26,336 nt of DNA from a virus. The stretch covers positions 1 to 26,336 of the IMG/VR virus record IMGVR_UViG_3300036845_000086, one strand, 5' to 3'. The number at the start of each line of letters is the position of its first letter. The first letter of the stretch is position 1. Both the position numbers and the translations under genes were made by a program. The notes under the pieces were generated by a model, which saw only the letters and a list, made by a program, of their open reading frames with translations, was not told where the DNA came from and made no database searches. Shown here in pieces: positions 18,806 through 25,342 of the stretch.

Positions 18806-20728
18806 ATGACCGCTGCTTTCCTCGCGCCCAATGCTCAATTTCGCAGTTGGGACAATAGCGGCGCGCCTTTAGTTGGTGGCCAGCTATTCACTTACGCCGC
18901 AGGCACCACCACCCCGATAGCCACCTACACCGATTCGACCGCAGGCACACCGAACACCAATCCGATAATCCTGAACTCTCGCGGCGAAGCGCAAGTTTGG
19001 TTGCTACCGAATGTCGGCTACAAGTTCATCTTGCAAGATTCAAGCGGCAATCCGATATGGACCGTTGATCAGATTTTCAACAGCCAATTGCTCACCCTTT
19101 TCGGTGGGGTGGATACGGGTTCGAACAACGCGTACATCCTGAACTTCAATACGCCATTCACCTCCTACACCAATGGTGAGGTGATTTATTTCATCCCTAG
19201 TACTACCAACACTGCGATACCGCAGCCCGTTACTCTCAATGTAAACGGGCTTGGGCCCATCCCTATCGTCAACATCAACGGTAGCGCTCTGGGTGCTGGC
19301 CAAATTCAGGCTGGCCAAACAACGCAAGTGATGTATTACAACGGTTCGTTTCAACTCATCTCGATTGGTTCTTTCAGTGGCGTGACTATCGGCACCTTCG
19401 GCCAAGAGTCATCGATTGCTTCCGCCGCGACCACGGACCTCGGCACCGCGCTACAGCATGTCGTCCTCATCACCGGCACCAACACCATTACTAGTTTCGG
19501 CACTTCGGCCAACATAGCCGCGCCGATCTTTCACGTGCGCTTTTCGGCATCGCTGCTACTGACCAATTCTAATTCACTGATCCTACCGGGCGCAGCCAAC
19601 ATCCAAACCCAAGCGGGGGATGCGCTCTTGGCGCAGTACCTTGGGAGCGGCACGTGGAAGGTGAACTTCTACCAGACTGCTATCGGTGGGGGCTCAACCA
19701 ATCCCAGTAAGATCAAACCGGCAGATACGACACTTAGCACCGCGACGTTAACCGCTGATCCTGACTTGATCACGCCAGTTCTCGCGATTGGCCGATACAT
19801 TTTCAACATCTATTTGGTATTTGATTCGAGTGTCGCGGGGTCAGGATTTAAATGGGGCAATGGTGGCACCGTGGTCGATTCGCGGGGGGTGGCTCCTTCG
19901 CTTGGTTTCGGCTTGGTCAATGCCGCTGCTTACGGTCCCACCAATGTAAATATTTATTCATCGGCGGCGGGACACGCAACGGTCTCTACTGGCCCCAATA
20001 GCAATGCGGTCTCGTGGACGGGATCACTACTAGTCGGCACCGCAGGCACCTTCGGCATTTCGTGGGCGCAGAACACTGCATCTGGTGGAAACACGATTCT
20101 GCGCGCTGGCAGTTTTCTGCAATTGCAGTTGGTGAGTACCGGTAGCGTATCGAACGCCATCACGCACACCTACACCACGGCGGGGAGCTTCACCGAAACT
20201 ATCCCCACCGGTTACAACAACGTGACCATTGAGGTATGGGGCGCAAGTGCGGGCGGGGCCACTTCCGGTTTCTCTGCGCAAGGTGGTGGCGGCGGCGGGA
20301 GTGGCGGCTACGCGCTCTCGAACTATTCAGTGACCGGTCATGGCGGGCAAACCATGGCATTCGTTGTGGGCGCATTGGGAGCCTATAACGCGGCACCCGG
20401 CACGGCGGCGGGCACCTCATCTGCTACCAGCGGCACGTTCACTATCACCGGCATGAATTGCTTGGGCGGCATCGTGGGCACTCAACCGGCATCGAACTTT
20501 GCCGGTGGTCCTGGTGGCCCTGGCGGCACGGCAACCGGTGGCAATGTGAGCAACACCACCGGCAACACGGGCGGCAGTGGCGCGGGTCCATTCGGCGGCG
20601 GCGGCGGCTTGGGTGTCCCTGGCATCAATGGCGGCGGCAATTCCGGTGGTGTCGGTGCCAATGCAACCCCATCCCCACCGGGCACCGCTGGCTTGCCCGG
20701 TGTCGTTGTCTTTAGGTACACCGTATGA
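18806..20728 (+). CDS. Tail fibre 1 with glycine-rich tip, 640 aa
   Basis: Residues 6-90 form a phage fibre anchor domain: [20 protein letters not shown], then [34 protein letters not shown]. Residues about 250-450 form a beta region (KADTTLSTATLTADPDL..., GTFGISWAQNTAS, AGSFLQLQLVSTG). Residues about 452-640 are a glycine-rich domain: THTYTTAGSFTETIPTGYNN, VTIEVWGASAGGA, then GGGGGGSGGYA, GGPGGPGG, FGGGGGLGVPG and a final VVVFRYTV. Such tips can fold as polyglycine-II-like bundles and are associated with receptor binding in phage adhesins. It probably binds the host surface. The anchor is duplicated in the next gene, which overlaps by 4 nt (ATGA). No strong ribosome-binding site is seen before ATG 18806. 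Confidence 0.85.
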   Translation: MTAAFLAPNAQFRSWDNSGAPLVGGQLFTYAAGTTTPIATYTDSTAGTPNTNPIILNSRGEAQVWLLPNVGYKFILQDSSGNPIWTVDQIFNSQLLTLFGGVDTGSNNAYILNFNTPFTSYTNGEVIYFIPSTTNTAIPQPVTLNVNGLGPIPIVNINGSALGAGQIQAGQTTQVMYYNGSFQLISIGSFSGVTIGTFGQESSIASAATTDLGTALQHVVLITGTNTITSFGTSANIAAPIFHVRFSASLLLTNSNSLILPGAANIQTQAGDALLAQYLGSGTWKVNFYQTAIGGGSTNPSKIKPADTTLSTATLTADPDLITPVLAIGRYIFNIYLVFDSSVAGSGFKWGNGGTVVDSRGVAPSLGFGLVNAAAYGPTNVNIYSSAAGHATVSTGPNSNAVSWTGSLLVGTAGTFGISWAQNTASGGNTILRAGSFLQLQLVSTGSVSNAITHTYTTAGSFTETIPTGYNNVTIEVWGASAGGATSGFSAQGGGGGGSGGYALSNYSVTGHGGQTMAFVVGALGAYNAAPGTAAGTSSATSGTFTITGMNCLGGIVGTQPASNFAGGPGGPGGTATGGNVSNTTGNTGGSGAGPFGGGGGLGVPGINGGGNSGGVGANATPSPPGTAGLPGVVVFRYTV

Positions 20729-21393
20729 GCGTAGTACTAGCCCCGTCGCCAATCTTCCGTGGTGTCGCGAACGATGGCACGGCGCTGGTGGGTGGCCAGC
20801 TATTTACCTATATCGCAGGCACCACCACGCCACAAGCGACATGGATCGATTCGACCCAAACCACGCAAAACACCAACCCCGTGATATTGAATTCGCGTGG
20901 CGAAGCGAATGTATGGATTAACCCCGCGCTCATCTACAAGTTCGTTCTACAGGATTCGGCTGGCAATCCGATTTGGACGGTGGACCAAATCAATGGGGTG
21001 GGGCAATCAATCGTTACCAAGACCTTCACCCCCGCGCTCGCGTTTCAAGGGGGAGGTTCAGTCACTCAAACTGTGCAATACGCAAATTACAGCGTGGTTG
21101 GTAATGTGGTGACCTTCGTCGCCAAAATAAATTGGAGCGCAATCGCCGCACCAAGCGGTAACGTGACCGTTACTGGCTTGCCGATTGCGCCCAACATTGC
21201 CATGCAATTTGTTCCCATCAGCGTGTGGTGGGCCGGTCTTAACTTGACCGGCACCACGTTTCTAATGTTGCTACAGGCTGGCTTGACCACGGCTCTTACA
21301 TTCAACATGACCACCACTAGCAGCAACAACCTTCAAGGCTCCGCATTGCAAGCTAGCGGGCAATTGGTTTTTGGTGGCAGTTACCAAATCTAG
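20725..21393 (+). CDS. Tail fibre 2, sharing the anchor of fibre 1, 222 aa
   Basis: The ATG at 20725 overlaps the end of fibre 1. Residues 5-89 align without gaps to residues 6-90 of fibre 1, with about 59 of 85 positions identical by hand count; [23 protein letters not shown] and [10 protein letters not shown] are shared. Residues about 95-222 are different: a compact beta domain with [20 protein letters not shown] and [20 protein letters not shown], a style common in short phage fibre tips, and lacking the glycine-rich region. It probably attaches at the same site as fibre 1 and offers an alternative or additional receptor-binding tip. Its TAG stop overlaps the csrA stop on the other strand by 3 nt. 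Confidence 0.83.
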
Positions 21394-21578
21394 CGATTGC
21401 CGATGCTCTGCGCCTTGTCGGGATGAATCTTCGCGTAAATCTCTTCCCGATGAACCTCGACATCCTTGGGCGCGTTCACCCCTAGCCGCACTTGGTTGCC
21501 CTTGACCCCTAGCACCGTCACGGTGATGTGGTCCCCAATCTTCAACGATTCACTTACCCGCCTTGTCAAAATAAGCAT
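21390..21578 (-). CDS. csrA: CsrA/RsmA-family RNA-binding translational regulator
   Basis: The 62-residue product [20 protein letters not shown] continues with [20 protein letters not shown] and [11 protein letters not shown], near-identical in pattern to bacterial CsrA. Key RNA-contact residues L4 and R44 (in VHREE) are present. CsrA dimers bind GGA motifs in mRNA leaders and block or alter translation. The start is ATG 21578, because an AAGGAG ribosome-binding site lies just upstream and the family begins with MLILTRR; ten upstream in-frame residues are not native. It is the last gene of a three-gene leftward cassette, 26 nt after the triple-HTH gene, and its TAG overlaps the convergent fibre stop. 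Targets could be phage or host transcripts. Recent transfer from a gammaproteobacterial-type source is an inference. Confidence 0.95.
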
Positions 21579-21604
21579 TGGAACTCCTTTTCGAATAACT
21601 CTGA

Positions 21605-22480
21605 TCATTTGGTCAAACTATTCAGCGCCATCATTGCTAGCAAGTGCGCCTGATCGAACTCCTTTATAACTCCCCTTTGTAGCATCCCTGTACATTCATC
21701 CTTCGCGTGCCTCAAGAATGAAATGGCGTCGCGCACGGTAACGGGTATAGGGATGACTTTGCCGCCCGTCGCATCGAAGGGCACCCCTAGAGCATTCGCC
21801 ACCGCTTTGGTGCCTTCGGCGCGTTTTATATAGGCCCTCGGTATCTTCCCGCCCAAAGTCCGCCGCCAATAGTCGATGCCACTCGGTGTGACTCCAATTT
21901 CCGCACCGATATCAGTAATCCGCTCACCCGCCGCAACCCTTGCCAGCACCGCTAGCTTTTCCTCGCGGCTGAACTTGCTCACTCCTATTTTTGCTGTGGG
22001 CGATACCGCGTGCTTGGCGTGATGCGAACGGCGCTGCGCTTTCTTGGCGGTCTCCGGCGATAGCTTGCGACGCCACGCCGAAAGCATGCTGGTGGATATT
22101 TTCAAATCCTTGCAGATGATATCAAGCGTTTCCTTGCCCTTGTTCCACCGCTCAACCGCTTTGCGTTTGAAGACATCGGAATAAACGGTCAAGCCGCCCG
22201 GTGTCTTGGTGACGCCAGCTACCTTGGTGGGCTTGGCTTTGGCCTTCTCGCCTAAATCGCCATTCATCCACCGTCGCAGCATGGTGGGGTGTAGGTCCAT
22301 TTCCCTGGCTAGCACCACCATTTGCCCTTTCCATTTCTTAGCCCTCGCGACTGCGGCACGTTTAAACGCCTCATCGAACTCGCGGCGCGGCACTATCCGC
22401 CGACCCTTAGAATCGGTGCGCTTAAGTTGTACTGTCGGTTCCGGGGCGGCTATCTCACTTGCTACGTTACCTTCGGCCAT
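21605..22480 (-). CDS. Protein with three tandem helix-turn-helix repeats, 291 aa
   Basis: The ATG at 22480 has an AGAGGATC ribosome-binding site. Three similar segments resemble IS3/IS911 OrfA-type or homeodomain-like HTH units. Repeat 1 is residues 35-74 ([20 protein letters not shown] ... [13 protein letters not shown]). Repeat 2 is 100-140 ([20 protein letters not shown] ... [13 protein letters not shown]). Repeat 3 is 169-209 ([20 protein letters not shown] ... [13 protein letters not shown]). Basic linkers join them. Residues 221-291 form a different helical domain ([20 protein letters not shown]). No transposase DDE catalytic domain follows, so this is unlikely to be an IS remnant. A DNA-binding regulator contacting an extended or repeated site is inferred. 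It lies between the zinc-finger gene (14-nt overlap) and csrA. Confidence 0.78.
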
Positions 22481-22712
22481 TTCTCTTGATCCTCTTTTCG
22501 CGGCGGTATGATGCTAATTGGGTGATGTCTTCGCGCCGCTCTTCAATATGCTCGGCACGGAATAAGTACTTACCTAAACGCTTGGTGTAATCCAGTATTT
22601 CGGCTGGACGTTTCTTTGAGTGGTACGCCATCGACTGACGGCAGTTTGAACAAAACTTTCGACGTGCGTTGCCCGTAAGAACATTCGGGCAGTTCATTGT
22701 TGGACACTTCAC
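22467..22712 (-). CDS. Small Cys-rich zinc-finger-like protein, 81 aa
   Basis: A GTG start at 22712 has a well placed AAGGAG ribosome-binding site 5 nt upstream. The 81-residue product contains C3-x4-C8 ... C21-x2-C24 (MKCPTMNCPN, then KFCSNCRQS), a four-cysteine arrangement that could bind Zn(II). A basic, helical C-terminal half follows (SKKRPAEILDYTKRLGKYLF, RAEHIEERREDITQLASYRR), ending in [10 protein letters not shown]. It overlaps the triple-HTH gene by 14 nt, so the two are co-transcribed. Small proteins with this layout are often nucleic-acid binding, but no specific family is recognised. It is the first gene of the leftward csrA cassette, read from the non-coding region at 22713-23125. 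Confidence 0.72.
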   Translation of the reverse strand: MKCPTMNCPNVLTGNARRKFCSNCRQSMAYHSKKRPAEILDYTKRLGKYLFRAEHIEERREDITQLASYRREKRIKRNGRR

Positions 22713-22850
22713 TGCTACTCCTTGGCAAGGCGCGGGATGCGCCCATCGATTGGTCTAGCTCCTTTGGTTGCGAGTCAAGAAGAGTTTACCCCCGACACCG
22801 ATATAATTGAAACAGGGACCTTAAGGAGGGGCCCCAAGCGATGTAATTAG

Positions 22851-22910
22851 ATGGAGCTAGATTGAGCCAAATGGGAGTCAGAGACTCCCAACCCTATCCC
22901 ACGGCTCCGT
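22851..22910. other. Two-stem potential RNA or cruciform structure
   Basis: An 8-bp perfect inverted repeat, TGGGAGTC (22872-22879) with GACTCCCA (22883-22890), has a 3-nt loop AGA. It sits inside an outer 7-pair arm, 22851-22857 (ATGGAGC) with 22904-22910 (GCTCCGT), including one G-T wobble. The nesting looks like an acceptor stem with one internal arm, but there is no T-arm or tRNA consensus. It may be an operator, an attachment-site feature or a small structured RNA. The role is unknown. Confidence 0.45.
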
Positions 22911-22990
22911 AAGTTGCTGATTCTAAAGCCCCAAAAACCACGTTGCAGCCACGGCCAGGATAAGCGATCATGTTTTCTTGGGGTTTTCGT

Positions 22991-23043
22991 TCAATCTGGT
23001 TAAATCGTGATCAATCTGAAACCACTTAAATCCATGGGTTTCA
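22991..23043. repeat. TCAATCTG direct repeat and TGAAACC inverted repeat
   Basis: TCAATCTG occurs at 22991-22998 and 23011-23018, exactly 20 bp apart (about two helical turns). Overlapping the second copy, TGAAACC (23017-23023) faces GGTTTCA (23037-23043) across 13 nt. Such phased and inverted motifs fit binding sites for a dimeric regulator or integration accessory protein. The binder is unknown. Confidence 0.5.
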
Positions 23044-23063
23044 ATAAAACCAGCAAAACGAAT

Positions 23064-23093
23064 TATCCCAAAAGTATCCCAAGATTTTTGGGA
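23064..23093. repeat. TATCCCAA repeats directly upstream of the integrase
   Basis: TATCCCAA occurs at 23064-23071 and 23075-23082 (11-bp phase), and TTGGGA at 23088-23093 is an inverted partial copy, forming TCCCAA-GATTT-TTGGGA. The set ends 32 nt before the int ATG. Phased short repeats at this position fit arm-type integrase sites or an operator controlling int. The hairpin lacks a T-run, so it is not a terminator. Confidence 0.55.
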
Positions 23094-23125
23094 CAATAAA
23101 CGAGATTGAGCAACGGAGAAAAGAC

Positions 23126-24187
23126 ATGGCAACGTTTGTAAAGAGAGCTAACAGTGTGCAAGCGAAAGTAAACATTCGCGGCAACAAGGCATCAGAAACT
23201 TTCCCGACCATGAAAGAGGCGAAGGCATGGGCGGCGGACAAGGAAACGCAGTTCCGCAACCGCGTGAAAGTGTCGGCCAACATGACGGTGGGTGAAATCG
23301 TTGAGAAGTACTTGGAACACTACATCGACATCACGTTGAAAAAGGGCTACGTGGTCAAGCCCACCGAATCGCATTACACCCGGATGATTCGGGAATTCGC
23401 CAACACCGAATTGGCGTCGATGGATGAGGCGTGGTGGCTGGCCACGGTGCAAGGGTGGGAAGTGTCCCCCGGCACCGCGCAGCGCTACATCACCTTTCTT
23501 TGCACGGCGCTGCGCTACGCACAGTCGATGCTTAAAATAAAGTTCGATTGGGACGGCTACCATGCCGCCAAGGCCATCTTGAAGCGCAGCGATATCAATT
23601 TGGTTGGCGAAGCCAATGAGCGCAACCGGCGCTTACTGCCGGGGGAATTGGAAACGTTGAAGGCTGCGGTTCGTCCGACCCACGTGCCCTTGGGCGACAT
23701 GATCGACTTCGCGCTTTGCACGGGGTTGCGCCTGTCGGAAATTTGCAATCTCGAATGGAAGGATTTGAACCCGCTCACCAAGATGATTTGGGTGTTCAAT
23801 CGCAAGGACCCCAAGAACAAGATGAAAAAGCATACTCACTTGCCGCTCTTGTTCAACGCGCTCAACATCATCGACCGTCAACCGACCCGCGATAAGAAAA
23901 AGATTTTCCCGTATGTGTCGGGCTACGTGTCGGCGCTCTTCGGGCACACCGTTGAGGCGGCTGGCATCAAAGACCTTCACTTTCATGACTTGCGGCACGA
24001 AGCAATCTCACGGCTCTTCGAAGCGGGCTACGCCATCCAGCAAGTGGCGCTGGTGTCCGGCCATAAGAACTGGAAGCATCTGGCGCGCTATACCCACGTC
24101 AAGGGTGAGGACCTTCACAAGGGCCCGATGTTCACCGGACATGCCCCGGCACGGCATGAGCCGCCAAGGCTGCGCAGCGTTGCGTAA
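23126..24187 (+). CDS. int: Tyrosine recombinase integrase
   Basis: The 353-residue product has the tyrosine recombinase layout. The N-terminus is a three-stranded arm-binding-like domain (FVKRANSVQAKVNIRGNKAS, then a T-F-x-x-x-x-E-A-x-x-W/A pattern, residues 4-40). A SAM-like core-binding domain spans about 52-150 (MTVGEIVEKYLEHYIDITLK). The catalytic domain has R202 (CTGLRLSEICNLEW), H287 and R290 (FHDLRHEA), H313 (VSGHKN) and nucleophile Y322 (ARYTHV). It inserts and, with a directionality factor, excises the phage genome at attP/attB. A GGAG ribosome-binding site precedes ATG 23126, and repeats that could be its arm or operator sites lie immediately upstream. It is followed by a bidirectional terminator and convergent to the Xis/PrtN-like gene. 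Confidence 0.95.
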   Translation: MATFVKRANSVQAKVNIRGNKASETFPTMKEAKAWAADKETQFRNRVKVSANMTVGEIVEKYLEHYIDITLKKGYVVKPTESHYTRMIREFANTELASMDEAWWLATVQGWEVSPGTAQRYITFLCTALRYAQSMLKIKFDWDGYHAAKAILKRSDINLVGEANERNRRLLPGELETLKAAVRPTHVPLGDMIDFALCTGLRLSEICNLEWKDLNPLTKMIWVFNRKDPKNKMKKHTHLPLLFNALNIIDRQPTRDKKKIFPYVSGYVSALFGHTVEAAGIKDLHFHDLRHEAISRLFEAGYAIQQVALVSGHKNWKHLARYTHVKGEDLHKGPMFTGHAPARHEPPRLRSVA

Positions 24188-24472: not shown

Positions 24473-25342
24473 TCAGTAGATCACTATTTTTTGGTCATCA
24501 GTCGGCTGGACCGTCACGGTGTTGCGGGTCGCGGGTGCCTCTTGCTTGCGCCGTGACCAATTCCACCCCTTGATGACCATCCGCATGCGGATGGCCAGCG
24601 GGTACTTGGCCACTTGCGCGGCATCGCGGATGAATGCGGCACGTAGGATGTATTCGGGGTCCGACCGTATGATGTCTTCCCCGGTAAAGAGCCGCCGCAT
24701 AAAGCGGGTGGCTTCGTCCTGGTTTTTGCGTTGAAACATTTCATACAGCGCAACGCCGCACCCCAATGACAGGGGCCGCGACTCATGCGGGTAGCCCTGT
24801 AGGGTTTCCGCACACTGCAACATCGATAGATGCTCTTTCACGTATTCAATCACTGCGGTGTTCGATAGCCGCCCGTGGCTAATCGCTTTTTTATCCAAGC
24901 GCGCACACCATTGTGCTGCTGTAGCACACGCTTTGATGATGTAGTGCTGTACCTGCGGGAAGTACAGGAACAAGGCATCCGCCCCGGTTCGCACCGCACC
25001 CGTGTCGATGGTCTTAAATGCATCCGGGGTGATGCCGTACACCACCAGTGACTTGATGCTCTTGCCCGCCTCAACGATGGCGAAGAGTCGGTGTTGCCCG
25101 TCCAAGATTTGCTCATCCTCGGCAATGACGATGGCTTGGCCATTCACTTGCCAATTGCCATCAAGAATCTCTTGCGCCAAGAAGGCTACATGGGTCTTGC
25201 GCACCGGGCGGTTGTTGCGGTTGCAGCGCAGCCATTCGGTGGCATCACTGGGACGGATGGTCATCACCTCGGCAACAATGTTGCGATCACCACCGTATAT
25301 CTTCGCCGCATTCGGGAACTGAATGATTTTAGGGTCTGCCAT
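24473..25342 (-). CDS. DGQHR / ParB-N-like phage protein, 289 aa
   Basis: The ATG at 25342 opens a 289-residue frame. Residues 60-105 carry the signature LDGNWQVNGQAIVIAEDEQI then LDGQHRLFAIVEAGKSIKSL and VVYGI, with DGQHR at 81-85. This is the loop that defines a ParB/Srx-like domain found in phage and mobile-element proteins. A DTG-x-x-R segment (TIDTGAVRTGADAL, 111-124) follows, as is usual in this group, then a helical domain about 125-250. The biochemical activity is not established for most members; nuclease, nucleotide binding and DNA-modification links have been proposed for relatives. It sits between the SSB-like and Xis/PrtN-like genes in a single leftward operon, so a DNA-metabolism role is plausible. 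An A/T-rich run before the start gives no strong ribosome-binding site. Confidence 0.72.
   Translation of the reverse strand: MADPKIIQFPNAAKIYGGDRNIVAEVMTIRPSDATEWLRCNRNNRPVRKTHVAFLAQEILDGNWQVNGQAIVIAEDEQILDGQHRLFAIVEAGKSIKSLVVYGITPDAFKTIDTGAVRTGADALFLYFPQVQHYIIKACATAAQWCARLDKKAISHGRLSNTAVIEYVKEHLSMLQCAETLQGYPHESRPLSLGCGVALYEMFQRKNQDEATRFMRRLFTGEDIIRSDPEYILRAAFIRDAAQVAKYPLAIRMRMVIKGWNWSRRKQEAPATRNTVTVQPTDDQKIVIY

Follow-up and report, generated by a model that had tools for sequence, protein, structure and literature searches.

In bacterial regulators, long DNA sites are usually covered by paired subunits rather than by several HTHs strung along a single polypeptide. The virus record analysed here, whose full 26,336 bases we call the window, encodes a 291-residue protein in which HTHs follow one another, close to a phage integrase gene. 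This raises the question of what such a chain recognises and what it does for the phage. An earlier note on this DNA had read it as three transposase-type HTHs with a distinct C-terminal domain and no DDE domain, and had pointed to nearby repeats as a candidate target.

Three HTH units and a C-terminal hairpin

The array gene and its parts are as follows.

21605..22480, minus strand: HTH-array gene, 291 aa (ORF list, translation, Pfam, AlphaFold model)
22259..22378, minus strand: HTH unit 1, residues 35-74 (best Pfam HTH_Tnp_1 stretch 32-80; helices 37-49, 54-60, 65-72)
22061..22183, minus strand: HTH unit 2, residues 100-140 (own unit HMM; helices 102-114, 119-126, 130-140)
21854..21976, minus strand: HTH unit 3, residues 169-209 (HTH_28 at 174-207; helices 172-183, 188-195, 199-208)
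21611..21742, minus strand: C-terminal helical hairpin, residues 247-290 (AlphaFold model; own HMM)

The HTHs that the earlier note placed at residues 35-74, 100-140 and 169-209 were recovered both by profile and by model. Pfam HTH_Tnp_1 (PF01527) matched three times (E 8.9e-18, 64.7 bits against a curated cut-off of 24.1), which confirms the transposase type, and structure prediction, proposed in the note as a check, returned three tri-helical units at residues 37-72, 102-140 and 172-208. The AlphaFold model, whose input was an alignment of ten three-unit array proteins, had a mean pLDDT of 66.9, with the unit blocks mostly at 75-87, and a pTM of 0.31, which suggests that the units have no fixed mutual arrangement. 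From these modelled units, we infer that the array protein binds DNA. As the residues of the recognition helices vary among the three units of one protein, a single composite site is more probable than a repeated one. The extended site that had been proposed remains a fair expectation, and the repeated site is less likely.

No DDE domain was found in the array protein with Pfam, as had been claimed; the adjoining genes are the Cys4 gene described below and csrA, the latter being next after the array. The IS3 and IS66 profiles of NCBIfam gave 51.7 of 74 bits and 39.1 of 160 bits, and the protein stayed under every transposase cut-off. The C-terminus matched no Pfam family and was modelled as a pair of helices (247-269/277-290). 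Our own HMM of this hairpin found it at full length in 12 array proteins and shortened in L006, L009 and L119, and matched one other protein weakly (L043), so the distinct C-terminal domain of the earlier note is a conserved helical hairpin. The array gene is under purifying selection (pN 0.20-0.25 and pS 0.67-0.76 in the window and two relatives, with synonymous sites near saturation).

Searches of solved structures by sequence gave no match to the array protein, and Foldseek returned nothing at E <= 0.001 for either the array protein or the Cys4 protein. Many of the top-ranked, non-significant Foldseek matches of the array protein were tandem or bipartite DNA binders, with the Cbp1-type 2lvs first, Mos1 and Reb1 following, and Pax, Tc3 and KorB later.

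Relatives and unit number

Direct searches yielded two array relatives, 72 and 64% identical to the window protein. Further array records were reached via the neighbouring DndB-like gene and one more via the Cys4 gene, giving 15 phage records with the array, window included. As the records were gathered through these neighbours and the array itself, all linkage counts given here describe a non-random sample, in which many records are possibly fragments. The window's own DndB/ParB-like protein (24473-25342, minus strand; phrog_5931, E 1.3e-51) has 206 related stretches in uncultured phages. Among annotated phages and plasmids, the window array protein and query P0011 had zero matches, and the hits of query P0009 were confined to two weak places, in Latilactobacillus phages. 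For the L013 Cys4 protein, annotated phages gave no match. The genome collection gave nothing with A1 and four distant DndB-like matches with the DndB-like alignment; an integrated copy of an array phage was not found in it.

The number of units differs between records: three in ten (the window, L002, L003, L007, L008, L010, L011, L013, L019 and L027), two in four (L006, L009, L049 and L119) and six in one (L014). The second unit of L049 is weak (E 0.0004), and L007 and L010 are near copies. Among 18,010 ORFs from 100 loci, the family-unit HMM found strong multi-unit ORFs only in the array gene, in 13 distinct records including the window; beyond these, it returned the weaker gene of L049 and a small number of hits that were single or under threshold. 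A tryptophan stands near the unit end in all 42 aligned units (the two units of L119 are outside the alignment). Units at the same position were more alike than units at shuffled positions, both in the ten three-unit proteins, several of which are close relatives (0.389 against 0.309, p 0.0005), and in the six distinct ones (0.318 against 0.287, p 0.01); the alignment compared contains a spurious fourth L003 unit (E 0.4) that is excluded from the unit counts. Unit order is therefore kept across phages, and the units are accordingly old. DNA reach may change as HTH units are gained or lost, and this natural series of two, three and six units offers a test of whether HTHs add like beads to give new DNA specificity.

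The array is encoded with a Cys4 protein and often csrA

Two further genes make up the cassette in the window.

22467..22712, minus strand: small Cys4 protein, 81 aa (conserved residues in alignment; model pLDDT 86.6)
21390..21608, minus strand: csrA, 72-aa ORF (PF02599 E 2.6e-25, 88.6 bits against a cut-off of 27)

In the window, the Cys4 and array genes share 14 nt at the array start, and the longer, 72-aa csrA ORF overlaps the array stop; the usual CsrA start, MLILTRR, is at residue 11 of this ORF (21578). The Cys4 gene lies just upstream of the array in 15 of 15 records. Its residues C3, C8, C21, C24, R25 and R52 are invariant in all 15 aligned rows, which represent 14 array records and the array-less L015, the Cys4 gene of L119 having been read separately. 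csrA is found beside the array in 13 of the 15 records. Within a set of 20 tested records, the 12 with csrA are that set's array records other than L049, with the csrA of the window in addition. csrA was not found in L049 or L119, the match in L009 spans only part of CsrA, and in the L027 record the array occupies one end and csrA the other, with the final part of the array at the record's end and csrA immediately after it. The Cys4-array pair is thus the constant core, and csrA is a frequent third member. The five other phage csrA records that we examined had no array beside csrA.

The position after the Cys4 gene can be taken by other proteins. In L043, a protein read by eye as winged-helix ends in a hairpin like that of the array (E 0.0016, a weak match). 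This winged-helix-like protein (L043:7431-7985) is downstream of a Cys4 gene. In the group of L031, L037, L042, L046 and L047, the Cys4 gene is followed by a different protein, XRE-like by eye, and the one tested (L046) had no Pfam family match. Such swapped partners suggest a slot that exchanges DNA-binding domains, and whichever gene follows the Cys4 gene seems to encode a DNA-binding protein. A perfect palindrome, GTGTGTATACACAC, is found directly upstream of the Cys4 gene in L007:9189-9560, L008:3585-3974 and L010:2974-3335 and may be an operator. A promoter and terminator scan showed no excess above shuffles.

The repeats beside the integrase

The cassette is divergent from the integrase gene in the window, and the gap between them contains the repeats at 22991-23093 that had been put forward as the array's target.

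23126..24187, plus strand: tyrosine integrase (PF00589 E 2e-25; phrog_1), divergent from the cassette
22713..23125, no strand: 413-bp divergent gap between integrase and cassette, likely attP (repeats and core)
23064..23095, no strand: TTGGGATA pair (23064-23071, 23075-23082) and inverted TTGGGACA, probable integrase arm sites
22910..22921, minus strand: core-like element ATCAGCAACTTA
22895..22902, no strand: second arm-like site GTGGGATA
22859..23109, no strand: span of four AGATTGA/TCAATCT copies (22859, 22991, 23011, 23103)

Tyrosine integrases use paired arm sites around a core. In the window, the TTGGGATA copies are 11 bp apart with the inverted near-copy TTGGGACA close by. The counterpart in relatives is tandem TGGTAACA or TGGTACA next to the integrase gene, arranged around a core that resembles TAAGTNATTGA. 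At least three TGGTAACA-like repeats within one mismatch were present in 9 of 12 gaps, where shuffles averaged 0.3-0.5, and the gaps of L002 and L003 have TGGTACA pairs instead. A tandem-repeat test gave P <= 0.034 in 12 of 13 array gaps, with 0.116 for L002 (L013 and L049 are outside the gap set); the pairs listed for L006 belong to an AG run and are no arm sites, and L011 has a pair of a different sequence. This AG dinucleotide run is located in the integrase-Cys4 gap of L006 (L006:9797-10179). Array-less gaps gave 1.0 (L101), 0.112 (L102) and 0.002 (L103), so that, for array-less gaps, the layout is backed by the count in L103 and by eye only in L101 and L102.

Marinobacter phage PS6 has the same layout of repeats and core at its integrase, and none of the adjoining genes shown encodes an array. 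As this layout occurs beside an array-less integrase, we read the repeats as integrase arm sites rather than as the array target. The recognition helices of units 2 and 3 are common to the window and L002, yet the two records differ in their gap repeats, and their integrases are only 46% identical, which again fits arm sites. The TTGGGATA repeats around the attP-like core are thus probable integrase arm sites, judging from sequence and layout. Repeats and core were found in most gaps, and attL and attR were not found. Most of the proposed target at 22991-23093 therefore probably belongs to the integrase; the AGATTGA copies at 22991 and 23011 are the part that stays a candidate.

Alternative roles of the array protein

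AGATTGA or its complement TCAATCT occurs six times in the window, four of these inside the 413-bp gap (P 0.010 for the highest 7-mer count against shuffles), and AACCAGAT is kept at about the same position in the window, L002 and L003. Of the sequences that could serve this phage as a local operator, this 7-mer is the most promising one left. The array could accordingly bind the attP-like gap between the divergent genes, either to control its own operon and the integrase or to help build the recombination complex. We consider this possible but unlikely: the array is also present at the other 12 gaps listed, yet their repeated 7-mer is not AGATTGA, and a separate excisionase-like gene exists (phrog_1300). 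That the array is the lysogeny repressor of these phages is improbable. An S24-type repressor is absent in 20 of 20 records and no CI-like gene was seen beside Cro in L018 and L020, but HTH_3 CI-like proteins lie near recombination genes in the array phages L029, L019 and L023, and L018 has a P22-type Cro elsewhere. The array is at the integrase border and not in the immunity region with Cro, a region that the window does not contain. As relatives have separate genes of the Cro and CI types, the array is probably not the main repressor.

The array might also coat repeated or host DNA in the manner of Cbp1, as a chromatin-like or silencing protein, and its three HTHs in one chain would agree with this role. 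Cbp1 is reported to have three HTHs aligned along one CRISPR repeat, and Cbp2 to have two (PMC10883916). The 2lvs structure ranked first in Foldseek, and NCBIfam HTH_Cbp1 matched P0004 weakly (E 0.0013, 18.7 of 140 bits), the window protein not being listed; both matches are far under cut-off or significance, and a repeat array for such a protein was not found, which makes this role quite improbable. Cbp1 and Cbp2 are archaeal CRISPR-repeat binders and have no significant sequence or fold match to the array, and they are not known to have a C-terminal hairpin, a Cys4 partner or a csrA partner. Tandem-HTH DNA binders such as Cbp1 are already known and the array is a variant of that kind; Cbp1 is the nearest in design, by analogy and not by membership. 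Paired-domain and Tc/mariner proteins place two HTHs on one composite site. Pax, Tc3 and Mos1, listed by Foldseek and VIA-align without significance, accordingly have two HTHs against three in the array. It is highly improbable that the array is a packaging protein like a small terminase. PHROG terminase-small matches are weak and cover single HTHs that fit many families, and VIA-align gave Z 5.2 to the small terminases of phages G20C and P74-26 (residues 170-291, rmsd 9), where its own guide states that Z < 8 may mean only a common arrangement; the large terminase gene (within 1445-2872) is far from the array (21605) and on the other strand. We give least credence to an IS element leftover, that is, OrfA without OrfB. 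HTH_Tnp_1 and the phrog_151 transposase (E 2.7e-17), the best PHROG match, agree with such an origin, with matched stretches that span at least two units but only the first ~200 of 582 profile positions. InsJ, the IS3-family OrfA of IS150, has HTH units of similar type with two HTH_28 stretches, but is under the HTH_Tnp_1 cut-off, reaches only E 0.005 with the array family HMM and is followed by insK, a gene that the array lacks. Place and partners of the array are conserved in 15 records, and the purifying selection, the lack of a DDE gene and the scores under every transposase cut-off argue further against a remnant.

A proposed regulator at the prophage edge

We slightly favour the reading that the array gene encodes a transcription regulator with several HTHs, which is produced from the prophage edge and teamed with a translational regulator. 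Each HTH unit would cover a short DNA stretch, so that three units together would read one long composite site, and the C-terminal hairpin would serve oligomerisation or bind a partner, for example the Cys4 protein. The array and the Cys4 gene, usually with csrA, lie in one overlapping operon at the integrase border, and integration would bring this cassette to one edge of the prophage. There, expressed in the lysogen, the array would act on promoters of the host or the prophage, and CsrA on mRNAs. As an integrated copy was not found, the edge position rests on the attP reading. Joint action with CsrA cannot be general, as csrA is missing from L049 and L119 and partial in L009.

Prophage ends are a usual place for host-serving genes. 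In Xanthomonas phage PBR31, related through its portal protein, a putative deacetylase gene precedes the integrase at the end of the late genes. csrA has been reported as a phage moron in JC1 (PMC9144972) and also in CSP3, both Burkholderia phages; there, csrA lies among head genes and without an array. At TldR loci, csrA is paired with a transposon-derived repressor, and both are proposed to act on the same target at two levels (PMC13418256). TldR is an RNA-guided TnpB relative, unlike the array, which has no such domain. Together, the csrA morons, the TldR-csrA pairing and the edge position suggest that the phage may control genes of its host cells at two levels. The cassette was absent from a limited library of literature on tandem or three HTHs in phage, phage csrA and lysogeny, transposase-derived HTHs and prophage regulators.

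Elsewhere in the window, two adjacent tail proteins (18806-20728 and 20725-21393) share an N-terminal domain of ~85 residues that is 71% identical, as if one anchor served two fibres.
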